Source: Streptosporangium lutulentum (GTDB lineage Bacteria; Actinomycetota; Actinomycetes; Streptosporangiales; Streptosporangiaceae). From it: a DNA stretch of 64,000 nucleotides. This document shows, one piece after another, positions 1,903 through 8,250 of the stretch (positions within the stretch are counted from its first letter, which is position 1; every line of letters starts with the position of its first letter). Position numbers and translations under genes: made by a program. The notes below the pieces were generated by a model. It worked only from the letters and a program-made list of their open reading frames with translations. It was not told the DNA's origin and did not search any database. The stretch lies in contig NZ_JAUSQU010000001.1 of the NCBI RefSeq assembly GCF_030811455.1, positions 4,092,001 to 4,156,000 of the forward strand, in the 5' to 3' direction.

Positions 1903-4646
1903 CTAAGGCCCCACGGCTATCTTCCGGGCTCCAAGCGGCCCGAAGTCATAGATCGTGTTGTTCACCTGCAGTCCGTCGATCGCGCCGATGAAGGCGGTGT
2001 CCATGCTGAAACCAAGACTCAGTGTGATCACCGCATCCGGCATCGCGGCCTTGAGTTCGTCGAACGAACACGGAGAAGCCAAAGTGCAGTTGATCAAGAT
2101 GCCCGTCGCCCCAGTGGCATACCACTGGCTGCCGGCTGCGCCGGCGTCGTATTGCTGCCAAGTATTGGGCAGCCGGGGGTCGGGAGTCGACGGGCTGACA
2201 GAGGTGTCAGGCAGATAGATCACGGTCGCGTAGCTCGCCGAGCCCACGTTGGGATCAACCTCTATGCTCAGTCTCGGCACGGAGACCGCCTCCGAAGAGT
2301 TGGTGCCCGCGAACGCCCAATATTTCAGCGTGATGAGATCACTGATCGACAACTCCGCGAAGTCCGTCTCGTTGCCGAAAGTGATCTTGTCTGGGCTGTC
2401 GCCAACGATGATTCCCAAGCTGCCGACGCCATAGGGCGGCGGTACGGTGGCCGCGGAGCTACTGGCAGGGTCTCGGCCATACGGGCCAACACGGTAGACG
2501 GCACTCGGCCCACTCTCTGATTCGCGGCCGATGACGCCCCACCTGTCGGTGCAACAGATGGCCGACCCAGGAGGTCCTTGAGGTCCCGTCTCTCCCTGCG
2601 GTCCTGCCGGTCCTTCCGGTCCGGTCGCGCCGGCCGCGCCGGTCGCACCCACCGGTCCTGCCGGTCCCGTCTCCCCCTGCGGTCCTGCCGGTCCCGTCTC
2701 CCCCTGCGGTCCTGCCGGTCCCGTCTCCCCCTGCGGTCCTGCCGGTCCCGTCGCGCCTTCCGGTCCTTCCGGTCCGGTCGCGCCAGCCGCGCCGGTCGCA
2801 CCCACCGGTCCTGCCGGTCCTGCCGGTCCCGCCGATCCTTCCGGTCCTGCCGGTCCTTCCGGTCCGGTCGCGCCGGCCGCGCCGGTCGCACCCACCGGTC
2901 CTGCCGGTCCCGTCTCCCCCTGCGGTCCTGCCGGTCCTGCCGGTCCCGCCGATCCTTCCGGTCCTGCCGGTCCTTCCGGTCCGGTCGCGCCGGCCGCGCC
3001 GGTCGCACCCACCGGTCCTGCCGGTCCCGTCTCCCCCTGCGGTCCTGCCGGTCCCGTCTCCCCCTGCGGTCCTGCCGGTCCCGTCTCCCCCTGCGGTCCT
3101 GCCGGTCCCGCCGGTCCCGCCGATCCTGCCGGTCCTTCCGGTCCGGTCGCGCCAGCCGCGCCGGTCGCACCCACCGGTCCTGCCGGTCCTGCCGGTCCCG
3201 TCTCCCCCTGCGGTCCTGCCGGTCCTGCCGGTCCCGCCGATCCTTCCGGTCCTGCCGGTCCTTCCGGTCCGGCCGCGCCGACCGCGCCGGTCGCACCCAC
3301 CGGTCCTGCCGGTCCCGTCTCCCCCTGCGGTCCTGCCGGTCCCGTCTCCCCCTGCGGTCCTGCCGGTCCCGTCTCCCCCTGCGGTCCTGCCGGTCCTTCC
3401 GGTCCCGTCGCGCCTTGCGGTCCTTCCGGTCCTTCCGGTCCCGTCTCCCCCTGCAGTCCTGCCGGTCCCGTCGCGCCTTGCGGTCCTTCCGGTCCTTCCG
3501 GTCCTTGCGGTCCTGCCGGTCCCGCCGATCCTTGCGGTCCTTCCGGTCCTTCCGGTCCTTCCGGTCCTGCCGGTCCTGCCGGTCCCGCCGGTCCTTCTGC
3601 ACCAGGGCCGCCGGTCGCGCCGGTCGCACCCACCGGTCCTGCCGGTCCCGCCGATCCTTGCGGTCCTGCCGGTCCCGCCGATCCTTGCGGTCCTTCCGGT
3701 CCCGCCGGTCCTTGCGGTCCTTGCGGTCCTTCCGGTCCTGCCGGTCCTTCCGGTCCTGCCGGTCCTTCCGGTCCGGCCGCGCCGACCGCGCCGGTCGCAC
3801 CCACCGGTCCCGCCGGTCCTGCCGGTCCCGTCTCCCCCTGCAGTCCTGCCGGTCCCGTCGCGCCTGCCGGTCCTTCTGCACCAGGGCCGCCGGTCGCGCC
3901 GGTCGCACCCACCGGTCCTGCCGGTCCCGTCTCTCCCTGCGGTCCTGCCGGTCCCGTCGCGCCTTCCGGTCCTTCCGGTCCTTCCGGTCCGGCCGCGCCA
4001 GCCGCGCCGGTCGCACCCACCGGTCCTGCCGGTCCCGTCGCGCCTTCCGGTCCTTCCGGTCCGGCCGCGCCAGCCGCGCCGGTCGCACCCACCGGTCCTG
4101 CCGGTCCCGCCGCTCCTTCCGGTCCTGCTGGTCCTTCCGGTCCGGCCGCGCCGACCGCGCCGGTCGCACCCACCGGTCCTGCCGGTCCCGTCTCTCCCTG
4201 CGGTCCTGCCGGTCCCGTCGCGCCGGTCGCACCCACCGGTCCTGCCGGTCCCGCCGATCCTTGCGGTCCTTCCGGTCCCGCCGGTCCTTGCGGTCCTTCC
4301 GGTCCTGCCGGTCCTTCCGGTCCGGCCGCGCCGACCGCGCCGGTCGCACCCACCGGTCCCGCCGGTCCTGCCGGTCCCGTCTCCCCCTGCAGTCCTGCCG
4401 GTCCCGTCGCGCCTGCCGGTCCTGCCGGTCCTTCTGCACCAGGGCCGCCGGTCGCGCCGGTCGCACCCACCGGTCCTGCCGGTCCTGCCGGTCCCGCCGG
4501 TCCTTCCGGTCCGGTCGCGCCGGCCGCGCCGGTCGCACCCACCGGTCCTGCCGGTCCTGCCGGTCCCGCCGATCCTTCCGGTCCGGTCGCGCCGGCCGCG
4601 CCGGTCGCACCCACCGGTCCTGCCGGTCCTTCTGCACCAGGGTCAC
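1903..4646 (-). pseudogene. Collagen-like secreted protein, 3' portion (split by IS3 element)
   Basis: This is the downstream part of a large collagen-like gene read on the reverse strand. It holds about 230 uninterrupted Gly-X-Y triplets built from units such as [23 protein letters not shown] and GPEGPEG. About 220 residues of non-collagen sequence follow, starting at [10 protein letters not shown] and ending ARKIAVGP. That C-terminal domain is rich in Ser, Thr and hydrophobics and looks like a beta-rich globular head; I do not recognise its family. The nucleotide repeats are nearly identical, so the tract is recent and length-variable. The first part of the gene lies at 5963-6437. The two parts join in frame when 4647-5962 is removed. 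An open frame begins in the IS end at 4689 ([11 protein letters not shown]), but the product would lack a signal peptide. Confidence 0.9.
4644..4646. repeat. Target-site duplication of IS3 element, left copy (CAC)
   Basis: CAC at 4644-4646 is repeated at 5960-5962, directly outside the terminal inverted repeats. Three bases is a normal duplication size for IS3-family elements. Confidence 0.85.
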
Positions 4647-4716
4647 GGGCCTTCACCCCGAGGTGTGGACATCTTGAGTGCCAGATCATAGAGATCTGGA
4701 GACCAAGGAGTTCCTC

Positions 4717-5040
4717 GTGGCCATGAAGGCCTACTCAGTTGAGTTCAAGACAGACGCCGTCGCGTTGTATCTGTCGGACCCGTCGCGGACGTACGCGTCG
4801 GTGGCCAAGGACCTGGGCGTCAACCGTGAGACGTTGCGCCTGTGGGTGCACCAGGCGCGGTCTGCCGGCACTGCTCCGAAGACGGGCTCGGTGAAGAGGC
4901 CGCCGACGGGATTGGTAACCTCCGGCAACGTGCTGGAAGAGGAGAACAAGCAGTTGCGGGCCCGGATCCGGGAACTGGAGCTGGAGCGCGAGATTTTGCG
5001 GCGGGCGGCCAAGTATTTCGCCGGGGAGACGAACTGGTGA
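4717..5040 (+). CDS. IS3-family transposase OrfA
   Basis: A 107-residue protein with an N-terminal helix-turn-helix ([16 protein letters not shown] then [16 protein letters not shown]) and a C-terminal leucine-zipper-like coiled coil ([20 protein letters not shown]). It recognises the element ends and is part of the transposase. The GTG at 4717 is chosen because AAGGAG at 4705-4710 is correctly spaced; the ATG at 4723 is the alternative. The stop overlaps the orfB start by 3 bp. Confidence 0.9.
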
Positions 5041-5927
5041 GTCGCTTCCAGTTCGTTGCCGATCACCGTGACGCCTTCGGGGTGAAGCGACTGTGCCGAG
5101 TGCTGGAGGTCTCCCGGTCGGGGTTCTATCGGTGGGTGGCCGCCACACCGGCGAGGGCGGTGCGGACGGCGGCCGACGCTGCGCTCGCGGCGGAGATCAG
5201 GCAGATCCACGCCGACTTCGATGGCACCTACGGCAGCCCGCGGGTGACTGCCGAGCTGCGCGATGCGGGCCGGCGGGTCAATCACAAGCGGGTGGCGCGG
5301 ATCATGCGGGTCTTCGGCATCGTCGGGCTGCATCTGCGTAAGAGGGTCCGCACCACGGTGCCCGAGCCCTCCCATCAGAAGATGCCCGACCTGATCAAGC
5401 GGGACTTCACCGCGGCCGCGCCGAACCAGCGGTACGTGGGCGACATCACCTATCTGCCCGTCGGTGAGGGACAGTTCTTGTATCTCGCGACGGTGCTGGA
5501 CCTGCATTCACGTCGCCTGGCTGGTTGGTCGATCGCCGATCACATGCGCACCGAGCTGGTGACCGACGCGCTGCGGGCAGCCGCCGCCACGCGGGGTGGT
5601 GACCTGGCCGGGGCGGTCTTTCACTCCGATCACGGGGCGCAATACACCTCCGCCGACTTCGCCGCCGTGTGCAAGGAGTTCGGTGTTCGCCAGTCGATGG
5701 GCGCCGTCGGGACAAGCGCGGACAACGCTGCCGCCGAGGCGTTCAACGCCACTCTCAAACGCGAGACGCTGCAGGGCGCCAAACGCTGGTCCTCGGCCCG
5801 CCAGGCTCGCCTGGAGGTCTTCAAGTGGATCACTCGCTACAACACCCGAAGGAGGCACTCCAGCCTGAACTACCTCAGCCCGATCACCTACGAGCAGCGG
5901 TCCGATAGGGTCCTGCTCGCCGCATGA
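5037..5927 (+). CDS. IS3-family transposase OrfB (DDE integrase)
   Basis: This 296-residue protein has an N-terminal HTH_21 segment (YGSPRVTAELRDAGRRVNHK) and an rve integrase core. The catalytic acidic residues are visible in VGDITYL, HSDHGAQY and NAAAEAFNATLKRE. It ends with the family signature YNTRRRHSSLNYLSP. It lies in the -1 frame relative to orfA and overlaps its end (GTGA at 5037-5040). It is therefore made either as an OrfAB fusion by frameshifting, as usual in this family, or by translational coupling. I see no A6G slippery site, which leaves coupling plausible. Confidence 0.93.
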   Translation: MSRFQFVADHRDAFGVKRLCRVLEVSRSGFYRWVAATPARAVRTAADAALAAEIRQIHADFDGTYGSPRVTAELRDAGRRVNHKRVARIMRVFGIVGLHLRKRVRTTVPEPSHQKMPDLIKRDFTAAAPNQRYVGDITYLPVGEGQFLYLATVLDLHSRRLAGWSIADHMRTELVTDALRAAAATRGGDLAGAVFHSDHGAQYTSADFAAVCKEFGVRQSMGAVGTSADNAAAEAFNATLKRETLQGAKRWSSARQARLEVFKWITRYNTRRRHSSLNYLSPITYEQRSDRVLLAA

Positions 5928-5959
5928 CAGCTGGTGTCCACATTTTGGGGCCAAGGCCC

Positions 5960-5962
5960 CAC
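5960..5962. repeat. Target-site duplication of IS3 element, right copy (CAC)
   Basis: This is the second copy of the CAC at 4644-4646, immediately outside the right inverted repeat that ends at 5959. Confidence 0.85.
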
Positions 5963-6437
5963 CGGCCGTGCCCTGCGGTCCTGCCGGTCCCGTCGCGCCT
6001 TCCGGTCCTGCCGGTCCTGCCGGTCCTGGCGTACCAGTTTCACCTACGGGGCCTTCTGGGCCCTGAGGGCCATGTAAGCCGGTTCGACCCGTCGCGCCCT
6101 TCGGTCCTTTCCTGCCTTTCGGTCCGCGCGGACCACGCAGGCATACGCAAACCTCGTTCCTGCACCTACATGGCTTGCAGCACCTCTTCCGGCAATGCCC
6201 CCCCGCATAGACGTGCGGCTTTCGGGAGACGGCAACAGGAGGGCAAGCCAGAACCGACTTACTCTCCTTAACTTGTGCGATCAAGCGAACGCTGCTCAGC
6301 TTTTGCTTGGGGACGATTGCCTGCACTTGGAATGATATGGATAAAAAAACACCGATCAGAATCACCGTAACGCCTCGATTTTGAGCGCGTCTGCTGGACC
6401 ATGGGATCACAATGCGCCTGCTATCGATGGAATTCAT
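5963..6437 (-). pseudogene. Collagen-like secreted protein, 5' portion (split by IS3 element)
   Basis: This is the N-terminal part of the collagen-like gene. From the ATG at 6437 the protein has a basic start, a hydrophobic signal segment (VTVILIGVFLSISFQVQA), a short linker and a strikingly Cys-rich basic motif (HCRKRCCKPCRCRNEVCVCL). About 19 Gly-X-Y triplets follow, beginning GPRGPKGRKG. Joined to 4646-1903 it gives 1072 residues with about 250 triplets and no break in the Gly register. An in-frame ATG at 6485 would add 16 residues; no Shine-Dalgarno sequence decides between them. Cysteines flank the triple-helix region at both ends and could lock trimers through disulfides. With the IS in place this half reads into the element and ends at 5508. 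Confidence 0.85.
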
Positions 6438-6705
6438 ATCATTCCGTGTCATTCGGGGTCTTGAGGAGGGGCCTCTACGACGCATGGATAGTGATCATGG
6501 GATACCCGATGAATACCCTTAAATGCATCCCCCCGACCACCAAACCGTAAATTGAGAATATGGTGACAGGAAAGCGGCAGAGGAAAGCCTGTCGAGGTTT
6601 ATATTCATGCACATAAGGACTTTATGTTGCGATCTTTGGCCTGTATGTCATTGAATTCGCAGTGAAGGCGTTTGGTGCATTTTGCGGGGGAAGGTGGGGG
6701 AACCC
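6438..6705. other. AT-rich leader between two secreted-protein genes
   Basis: This non-coding stretch is clearly more AT-rich than its surroundings. It contains A/T runs near 6545-6625 and should hold the promoter of the collagen-like gene and the 3' flank of nothing else on the plus strand. I cannot identify a specific promoter or operator. Confidence 0.5.
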
Positions 6706-7887
6706 CTAGAGCTCGTCGGCGGCCATTGCGTTCACAGAGGATTGGCGTGGCGGGCAGGTCATACGCCCCGCTGTCGTGGACGGCAGATTGACTTGAGGCT
6801 CGCTGCCACACGTTGGCCCGCATTCCTCTAGCAGGCAGAAGCCCTGGGAGTCGACGGCCTGGATGAAGGCCGGTGACGTGCCGCCGTCCAGTTCGGTCGT
6901 GCCGGGGAAAACGGCGACGATCTCATGTACGCCTTCGGAGAGGGGAGCGACGGTCAATTCGGCGTGGCCTGTGCCATCGAGCTGGGCTGTGCCCAGGCTC
7001 ACTCCGTCGCTGAAGAATTCGACCGGGCCGGTGGGAACGATCCCGCTCGGAGATCTCACCGTCGCGGTGAAGGTGATCGGGCTTTGCTGGCTGATGGCGC
7101 ACGACGAGTTCACCGCGGTGGTGGTGGACCTGTCGGGAGGACCCGCGCAGGTAGACAGGATGATGGTGTTCGTGTCCAGCGTGACGGTGCCATTGTGAGC
7201 CAGGGTTCGACCGTCCACGGTCACGCCGCTGCCCACCGTGATCGAGGTCAGCGCGAGAACGTCGCCGGCGAAGTCGGTAGTGGCTCCGAGCGTGGCCGAG
7301 CTGCCTACCTGCCAGAAGACGTTGCATGCCTGTGCCCCCCCGGTGAGGGTCACCGTGCTGGCGGCCGCGGCGATGAGGGTGGAGGCGGTCTGGAAGATGA
7401 AGACCGCGGTGGGGTCACCCTGGGCGTCGAGTGTCAGATTTCCTGTGATCTGGAATGTGCCCGCGGCGGAATTGTAGACGCCGGGAGTCACGGTGGTTCC
7501 ACCCAGCTGTGTCGGGATGGTGGCGTCAGGAGTGCGAGAGGCAGCGTCGTTGTAGGCGGCGAGCAGATCCGCCTGAGCCTGTGCGGCGGTGGCGTCGGCG
7601 GCGTGGAGGGTCCCGATCAAGGTGCCGGGCGGGAAGCCGGTCACCACGGAGCCCGGGCTGGTCCCCAGATCTCCGGTGACGATGGTGGGGCCGGTATTCA
7701 TGACAGAGGCCCCGCCCAGGACTGCGAATTTCGCAGCCGTGCCCAGCGCGACCGGTGCCGCCAATGCGTTCGCGGCACAAGGTGTCGCAGCGATGCTTCC
7801 TGTCGCGATCAGGACCGCGAGGACCCATGCCGGCAAGGAGCGAACGATGCTTTGTGATACAAGACGGGGGCCACCGGCGTCTGTCAT
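6706..7887 (-). CDS. Secreted DUF3494 (ice-binding-like) protein with Ig-like domain
   Basis: The 393-residue protein starts with a signal peptide (LPAWVLAVLIATGSIAATPC). A DUF3494 beta-solenoid domain occupies residues about 45-250 (LGTAAKFAVLGGASVMNTGP, TIVTGDLGTSPGS, NLTLDAQGDPTAVFIFQ, CNVFWQVGSSATLG). A bacterial Ig-like domain follows (about 255-345, ITFTATVRSPSGIVPTGPVE), and then a short Cys-containing tail. DUF3494 includes ice-binding proteins but also many adhesins in mesophiles, so a surface-adhesive role is as likely as ice binding. No LPXTG or other anchor is seen. The ATG at 7887 is preferred over the TTG at 7890. It faces the same way as the collagen-like gene and shares an AT-rich upstream region. 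Confidence 0.88.
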   Translation of the reverse strand: MTDAGGPRLVSQSIVRSLPAWVLAVLIATGSIAATPCAANALAAPVALGTAAKFAVLGGASVMNTGPTIVTGDLGTSPGSVVTGFPPGTLIGTLHAADATAAQAQADLLAAYNDAASRTPDATIPTQLGGTTVTPGVYNSAAGTFQITGNLTLDAQGDPTAVFIFQTASTLIAAAASTVTLTGGAQACNVFWQVGSSATLGATTDFAGDVLALTSITVGSGVTVDGRTLAHNGTVTLDTNTIILSTCAGPPDRSTTTAVNSSCAISQQSPITFTATVRSPSGIVPTGPVEFFSDGVSLGTAQLDGTGHAELTVAPLSEGVHEIVAVFPGTTELDGGTSPAFIQAVDSQGFCLLEECGPTCGSEPQVNLPSTTAGRMTCPPRQSSVNAMAADEL

Positions 7888-8250
7888 CAAACTGCTCTTT
7901 TCCTTTAGTGCGACTCAGTCCAGGCGCATTACCGATGACGCGTCATATCCTCCAACTTACTAATCGGCAGTTTGGTTCCTTGTCATCCGACATGCGGAAG
8001 AAAAATGCCGGGTGTCATTTCTGGGCAAAAGATGGGATCGCCATGGTGTCCGATAGTGCTTTTAATCATTCAGACGCTGAATGGCACTCATTTCCCGACA
8101 TTTCGATATTAACAATTCAATATCCTCCAGAGGTGAGAGTCGACTGCCAGGCGATCGCCCATCCTGCACATGGAACCGCGCCAAGAGGCGAGGAGGCGTC
8201 GCACCTTAGCCTCGATCTTTCGTGATTTTTGTGTGATGGGTCTGTCGATC
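7888..8250. other. Gene-free AT-rich region upstream of the DUF3494 gene
   Basis: About 360 bp without a credible gene and of lower GC than the flanks. It must hold the promoter of the DUF3494 gene on the reverse strand. No recognisable operator was found. Confidence 0.5.

Follow-up and report, generated by a model that had tools for sequence, protein, structure and literature searches.

A copy of a multicopy insertion sequence (IS) of the IS3 family has very probably transposed into the gene of a probably secreted, collagen-like protein with 1,072 residues in Streptosporangium lutulentum, by a 3-bp staggered insertion at the trinucleotide CAC. Taken together with the mechanism, the loss of the product and the role of the protein described below, this reading is given a probability of about 0.93. 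The window analysed is a 64,000-nucleotide stretch of the genome, and the features at this locus, numbered from the first base of the window, are as follows.

1903..4646, minus strand: 3′ part of the collagen-like gene, with 231 uninterrupted Gly-X-Y triplets and the C-terminal domain.
1903..2565, minus strand: C-terminal globular domain, without a Pfam or NCBIfam hit, modelled as a beta-sandwich.
4644..4646, no strand: left CAC copy of the 3-bp target duplication, from the sequence and the comparison of genome copies.
4647..5959, plus strand: IS3-family insertion sequence of 1,313 bp, ends GGGCCTT...AAGGCCC, identical to 18 other full genomic copies.
4647..4673, plus strand: left imperfect terminal inverted repeat, matching the right end at 21 of 27 bases.
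4723..5040, plus strand: orfA, 105 aa, HTH_Tnp_1.
5037..5927, plus strand: orfB, 296 aa, DDE integrase core, with a GTG start that overlaps the orfA stop (GTGA).
5933..5959, minus strand: right imperfect terminal inverted repeat, partner of the left end.
5960..5962, no strand: right CAC copy of the 3-bp target duplication, on the same basis as the left copy.
5963..6437, minus strand: 5′ part of the collagen-like gene, with the leader, a Cys-rich segment and the first 19 Gly-X-Y triplets.
6706..7890, minus strand: ice-binding-like gene (PF11999 and the Ig-like domain PF16640), directly upstream of the collagen-like gene and on the same strand.

The ends of the element were fixed by comparison with the other copies in the genome. 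At least 21 copies are full length (a lower bound, from the 40 scored out of 231 first-look candidates of the genome search); 19 are identical over 1,313 bp, two have one mismatch, and partial copies also occur. All 21 begin with GGGCCTT and end with AAGGCCC, and the flanks differ between copies. A perfect 3-bp duplication is found at 16 of the 21, and a 4-bp duplication at none. At the collagen-gene site the next outward bases are T and C, and this difference, together with the ends shared by the 21 copies, rules out a longer alternative duplication. A preliminary description of this DNA had proposed a base-exact IS3 insertion with a 3-bp CAC duplication, and its coordinates prove to be exact. 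The transposase frames, which it had called intact, are both open and stand in a −1 relation. With the NCBIfam IS3 model, orfB scores 333.9 bits (cut-off 160), and it carries an rve core with catalytic residues D136, D198 and E234, i.e., DD(35)E spacing. OrfA alone reaches 51.9 bits, below the whole-protein cut-off of that model, as expected for a part.

When the empty site was rebuilt from 31 nt on each side, keeping one CAC, the join reads in perfect Gly-X-Y register, as had been proposed; no Gly-X-Y pattern appears in either of the other frames, one of which contains a stop. The rejoined gene encodes 1,072 residues from a Met at 6437, a start that is kept in relatives, in agreement with the first estimate of about 1072; counted from the ATG at 6485 it has 1,088 codons (174, the junction codon and 913). 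The Gly-X-Y tract scores 322 bits with PF01391, well above the cut-off, while the score of 480 with NCBIfam SclB (cut-off 325) stems from the repeats. The Cys-rich N-terminal segment has no match in Pfam or NCBIfam. A visible hydrophobic leader suggests that the protein is probably secreted. A C-terminal LPXTG wall anchor is absent, and the earlier description of a surface protein therefore goes beyond the evidence. Like the streptococcal proteins Scl1 and Scl2, and like Lcl and BclA, it has a long Gly-X-Y tract and is probably secreted, and BclA and Lcl also have a C-terminal non-collagen domain. It differs from the Scl adhesins in lacking the LPXTG anchor, and from all four in having a Cys-rich segment and a C-terminal domain that match neither Pfam nor NCBIfam. 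A search for literature on collagen-like proteins together with Streptosporangium found none.

Three relatives carry both gene ends in a single frame (lengths stop to stop): a member of the same genus (G004; 1,282 aa), Sphaerisporangium corydalis (1,076 aa) and Acrocarpospora corrugata (632 aa). Their identities to the split gene are 73%, 41% and 36%, respectively, in the non-repetitive N-terminal part, and 88%, 76% and 71% in the C-terminal domain. Because these three relatives have the whole in one frame, a reading of the locus as two separate genes with an IS between them is rejected, and the proposal of one ancestral gene split by the IS is borne out. No relative was found in which the two halves are separated by unrelated sequence. 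In a relative represented by locus L011, the junction motif GPQGTAGDPGA is unbroken. Between the split gene and G004, dN and dS (NG86) are 0.055 and 0.135 for the C-terminal domain, and 0.139 and 0.306 for the N-terminal part; dN/dS is thus about 0.4–0.45, which suggests modest constraint, applying to the time before the insertion.

The near-identity of the genomic copies, and the fact that both gene halves are still open, indicate a recent insertion, in line with the preliminary description. The copies are also clustered, 15 of the 20 gaps between neighbours being under 100 kb, compared with a mean of 3.7 and a maximum of 11 in 20,000 random placements. Among the five full copies without a duplication, two are nested IS-in-IS and three are unexplained (L004, L008 and L028). 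The nested units (L031 and L034) have matching outer flanks, one reading GAC-[full copy]-[copy from about position 178]-GAC and the other CCC-[first 335 bases]-[full copy]-CCC. This arrangement fits a copy that inserted into another, with one side lost afterwards, as if by recombination between copies. The three full copies lacking matching 3-bp flanks are possible scars of rearrangement between copies.

The insertion is read from one assembly, and both the repetitive collagen tract and the presence of 21 IS copies that hardly differ make assembly difficult. An IS copy might therefore have been misplaced inside the collagen gene, and assemblies of the species do differ: in a second genome record (P0120, 156 aa, on a contig of 10,312,320 bases) the C-terminal domain has a frameshift. 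However, a random misjoin would not yield both a matching 3-bp duplication, as seen at 15 other copies, and an in-frame empty site, and the chromosome of this 10.6 Mb, three-contig genome is a single contig of 10,328,227 bases, making an assembly artefact very improbable.

In a genuine transposition, OrfA and OrfB would make a circular or figure-of-eight intermediate, which would be pasted at the CAC site with a 3-bp stagger, duplicating CAC. The 5′ part of the gene now runs into the antisense strand of the IS and stops at 5508, so that 310 aa remain: the leader piece and a tail encoded by that strand. The 3′ part can only be started without a leader, for instance from an in-frame ATG that lies within the IS at 4689 and opens a frame of 928 aa. 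The secreted collagen-like product would be lost, since 231 of its 250 triplets and the C-terminal domain are now cut off from the leader, although translation of the 3′ part could start at the in-frame ATG. This start, perhaps with an outward promoter in the IS end, might mean that the gene has been remodelled and its expression kept or switched, since the 928-aa frame continues in frame through the collagen tract. Its product, having no leader, should stay intracellular, by eye the ATG is not preceded by a clear ribosome-binding site, and chance gives in-frame starts in one frame of three, so that remodelling is considered unlikely.

It had also been suggested that the loss may be strain-specific or reversible. 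Both go beyond the evidence, the former because one genome of the species was read. An insertion acting as a switch, with precise excision restoring the gene, would be consistent with two halves that are open and in register, but no sign of regulated excision is seen. An IS911-type copy-and-paste element need not leave its site, and if the window element moves as IS911 does, reversal is unlikely. The available part of PMC5771124 calls transposition in the IS3/IS150 subgroup cut and paste, which would suit a switch, whereas that of PMC6211511 describes IS911, the IS3-family model, as copy-and-paste. A reversible switch is judged extremely unlikely, and disruption by the transposed IS remains the preferred reading.

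The element shares with the IS3 family (IS911, IS150, IS407, IS2 and IS51 subgroups) the overlapping orfs in −1 relation, an OrfA with HTH_Tnp_1, an OrfB rve core with DD(35)E, imperfect terminal inverted repeats and a 3-bp duplication. It departs from the family pattern in its ends, which are GGG...CCC in 21/21 copies instead of the general terminal CA, in lacking an A6G-type slippery run in the orf overlap, and in having an orfB with its own GTG overlapping the orfA stop. In the available part of PMC6211511, a terminal CA and an A6G-type −1 frameshift signal are described as general in IS3 elements, so neither strictly defines the family. None of the A6G-type frameshift motifs sought in the orfA/orfB overlap of the window element is present, and no run of five or more A occurs in the overlap of any of six elements (the window IS and five plasmid relatives).

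IS relatives in G004 and G015, 80% identical, likewise have GGGC...CCC ends, which in two of the five examined are flanked by a 3-bp duplication (L067, GTG; L068, CTA). The five plasmid relatives, from Streptomyces and Rhodococcus, have a protein identity of about 71–75% and conserve the orfA end with its GTGA overlap; GGG end pairs were recovered for four, three of them flanked by a 3-bp duplication, and no end pair for the fifth. At least 5,000 plasmid records match orfB, a number from which the spread of the element cannot be counted. The GGG ends, the missing A-run and the GTG overlap recur in most of the relatives examined, from G004, G015 and actinobacterial plasmids, and so appear on sequence grounds to be traits of an IS group and not of the window copy alone. 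The actinobacterial elements at L066–L070 and L079–L083, with GGG...CCC ends, a conserved orfA end (AAGTATTTCGC...GTGA) and no A-run, represent a candidate IS3 subgroup. No literature was found on the IS3 family together with Streptosporangium.

The C-terminal domain was modelled from 113 sequences with a pLDDT of 95, replacing an earlier fold from 12 sequences (pLDDT 52). The fold is a confident beta-sandwich that resembles carbohydrate-binding modules at middling scores, and comparison by VIA-align gave no close structure standing clear of the others. The domain represents an unnamed family, with relatives in Streptosporangium subroseum, Sphaerisporangium and Acrocarpospora among named organisms. 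It occurs once in its own genome, where other collagen-like frames exist (among the matches listed), so that the split gene has no paralogue with this end domain to replace it.

For this strain and two relatives (P0083–P0085), the protein database has only C-terminal fragments of 171–175 aa. Gene finders call the 171-aa fragment (P0083) at 1903–2565, and treat the relatives (P0084, P0085) likewise. None of 1,392 candidates proved to be a longer protein carrying the domain (E ≤ 0.001). Among the 1,602 matches to the N-terminal half, collagen repeats seemed to account for the 120 listed. As the database holds only C-terminal fragments and no longer domain protein was found, annotation alone would hide the IS damage, and gene finders tend to miss such a long repetitive gene.

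With a score of 209.5 bits (cut-off 28.7), PF11999 is present as a full domain in the gene directly upstream, which also matches ice-binding proteins of solved structure (6eio, E 1.4e-56). A search for the C-terminal domain found 35 loci. Six of them combine 16 or more triplets with upstream DNA that could be read (the split gene, L010 of Sphaerisporangium corydalis, L012 of Acrocarpospora corrugata, L036, L037 and L045). All six have a PF11999 gene directly upstream, compared with none of the 25 loci with 0–4 triplets, within whose flanks no partner was found. The 25 collagen-less loci include two partial matches (L077, L078) and one with four triplets (L056). Set aside were the collagen-bearing L009 and L011 as well as L076, all three lacking upstream DNA, and L073, with eight triplets and no PF11999 partner within 3.4 kb upstream. 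Partners were sought by tblastn with one query sequence, by which distant versions could be missed. The Fisher value for partner against triplet count is 1.4e-6, which overstates the support, as the six collagen-bearing loci are related. PF11999 genes are not universal, with a match in 10 of 61 family genomes. From these sequences the collagen-like and PF11999 genes appear to form a conserved pair.

In L037 (5436–7889), a paralogous locus in a same-genus relative, one 817-aa frame combines 16 collagen triplets with the C-terminal domain and a stretch of PF11999, pointing to a physical partnership of the collagen stalk and PF11999. A second PF11999 frame in the own genome (L071, 3520–5223; 568 aa) is fused to a Gly-Ala-Pro repeat tract. 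In its available part, PMC9957290 lists PF11999+PF01391 fusions for sea-ice metagenomes and suggests a role in biofilm attachment; in the window, by contrast, the collagen and PF11999 parts lie in two neighbouring genes. For a link between DUF3494 and collagen, the available part of PMC12337378 has collagen only in its reference list. The upstream gene resembles DUF3494/PF11999 proteins in its full domain and its match to solved ice-binding structures, but its host is a soil actinobacterium, and its ice binding is putative.

The fold of the C-terminal domain, with its middling Z, and the gene neighbourhood suggest a role for the collagen-like protein. When intact, it would probably form a long triple-helical stalk with an end domain predicted to be carbohydrate-binding-module-like, and it may act jointly with the upstream ice-binding-like protein as a secreted adhesive or sheath fibre.

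As an event this is an ordinary IS knock-out, a case of a long, repetitive gene disabled by a recent burst of the IS; more of the interest lies in the target gene pair. Three things are directly testable: the unnamed C-terminal domain family, the pairing of PF11999 with collagen, and the actinobacterial IS3 group with GGG ends. As a tentative possibility, the pair may be a two-gene secreted fibre system of Streptosporangiaceae, with a Cys-rich base, a collagen stalk, a glycan-binding-like tip and a PF11999 beta-solenoid partner, which in this soil host would bind a polymer or surface other than ice and which the IS burst would have switched off in this strain.
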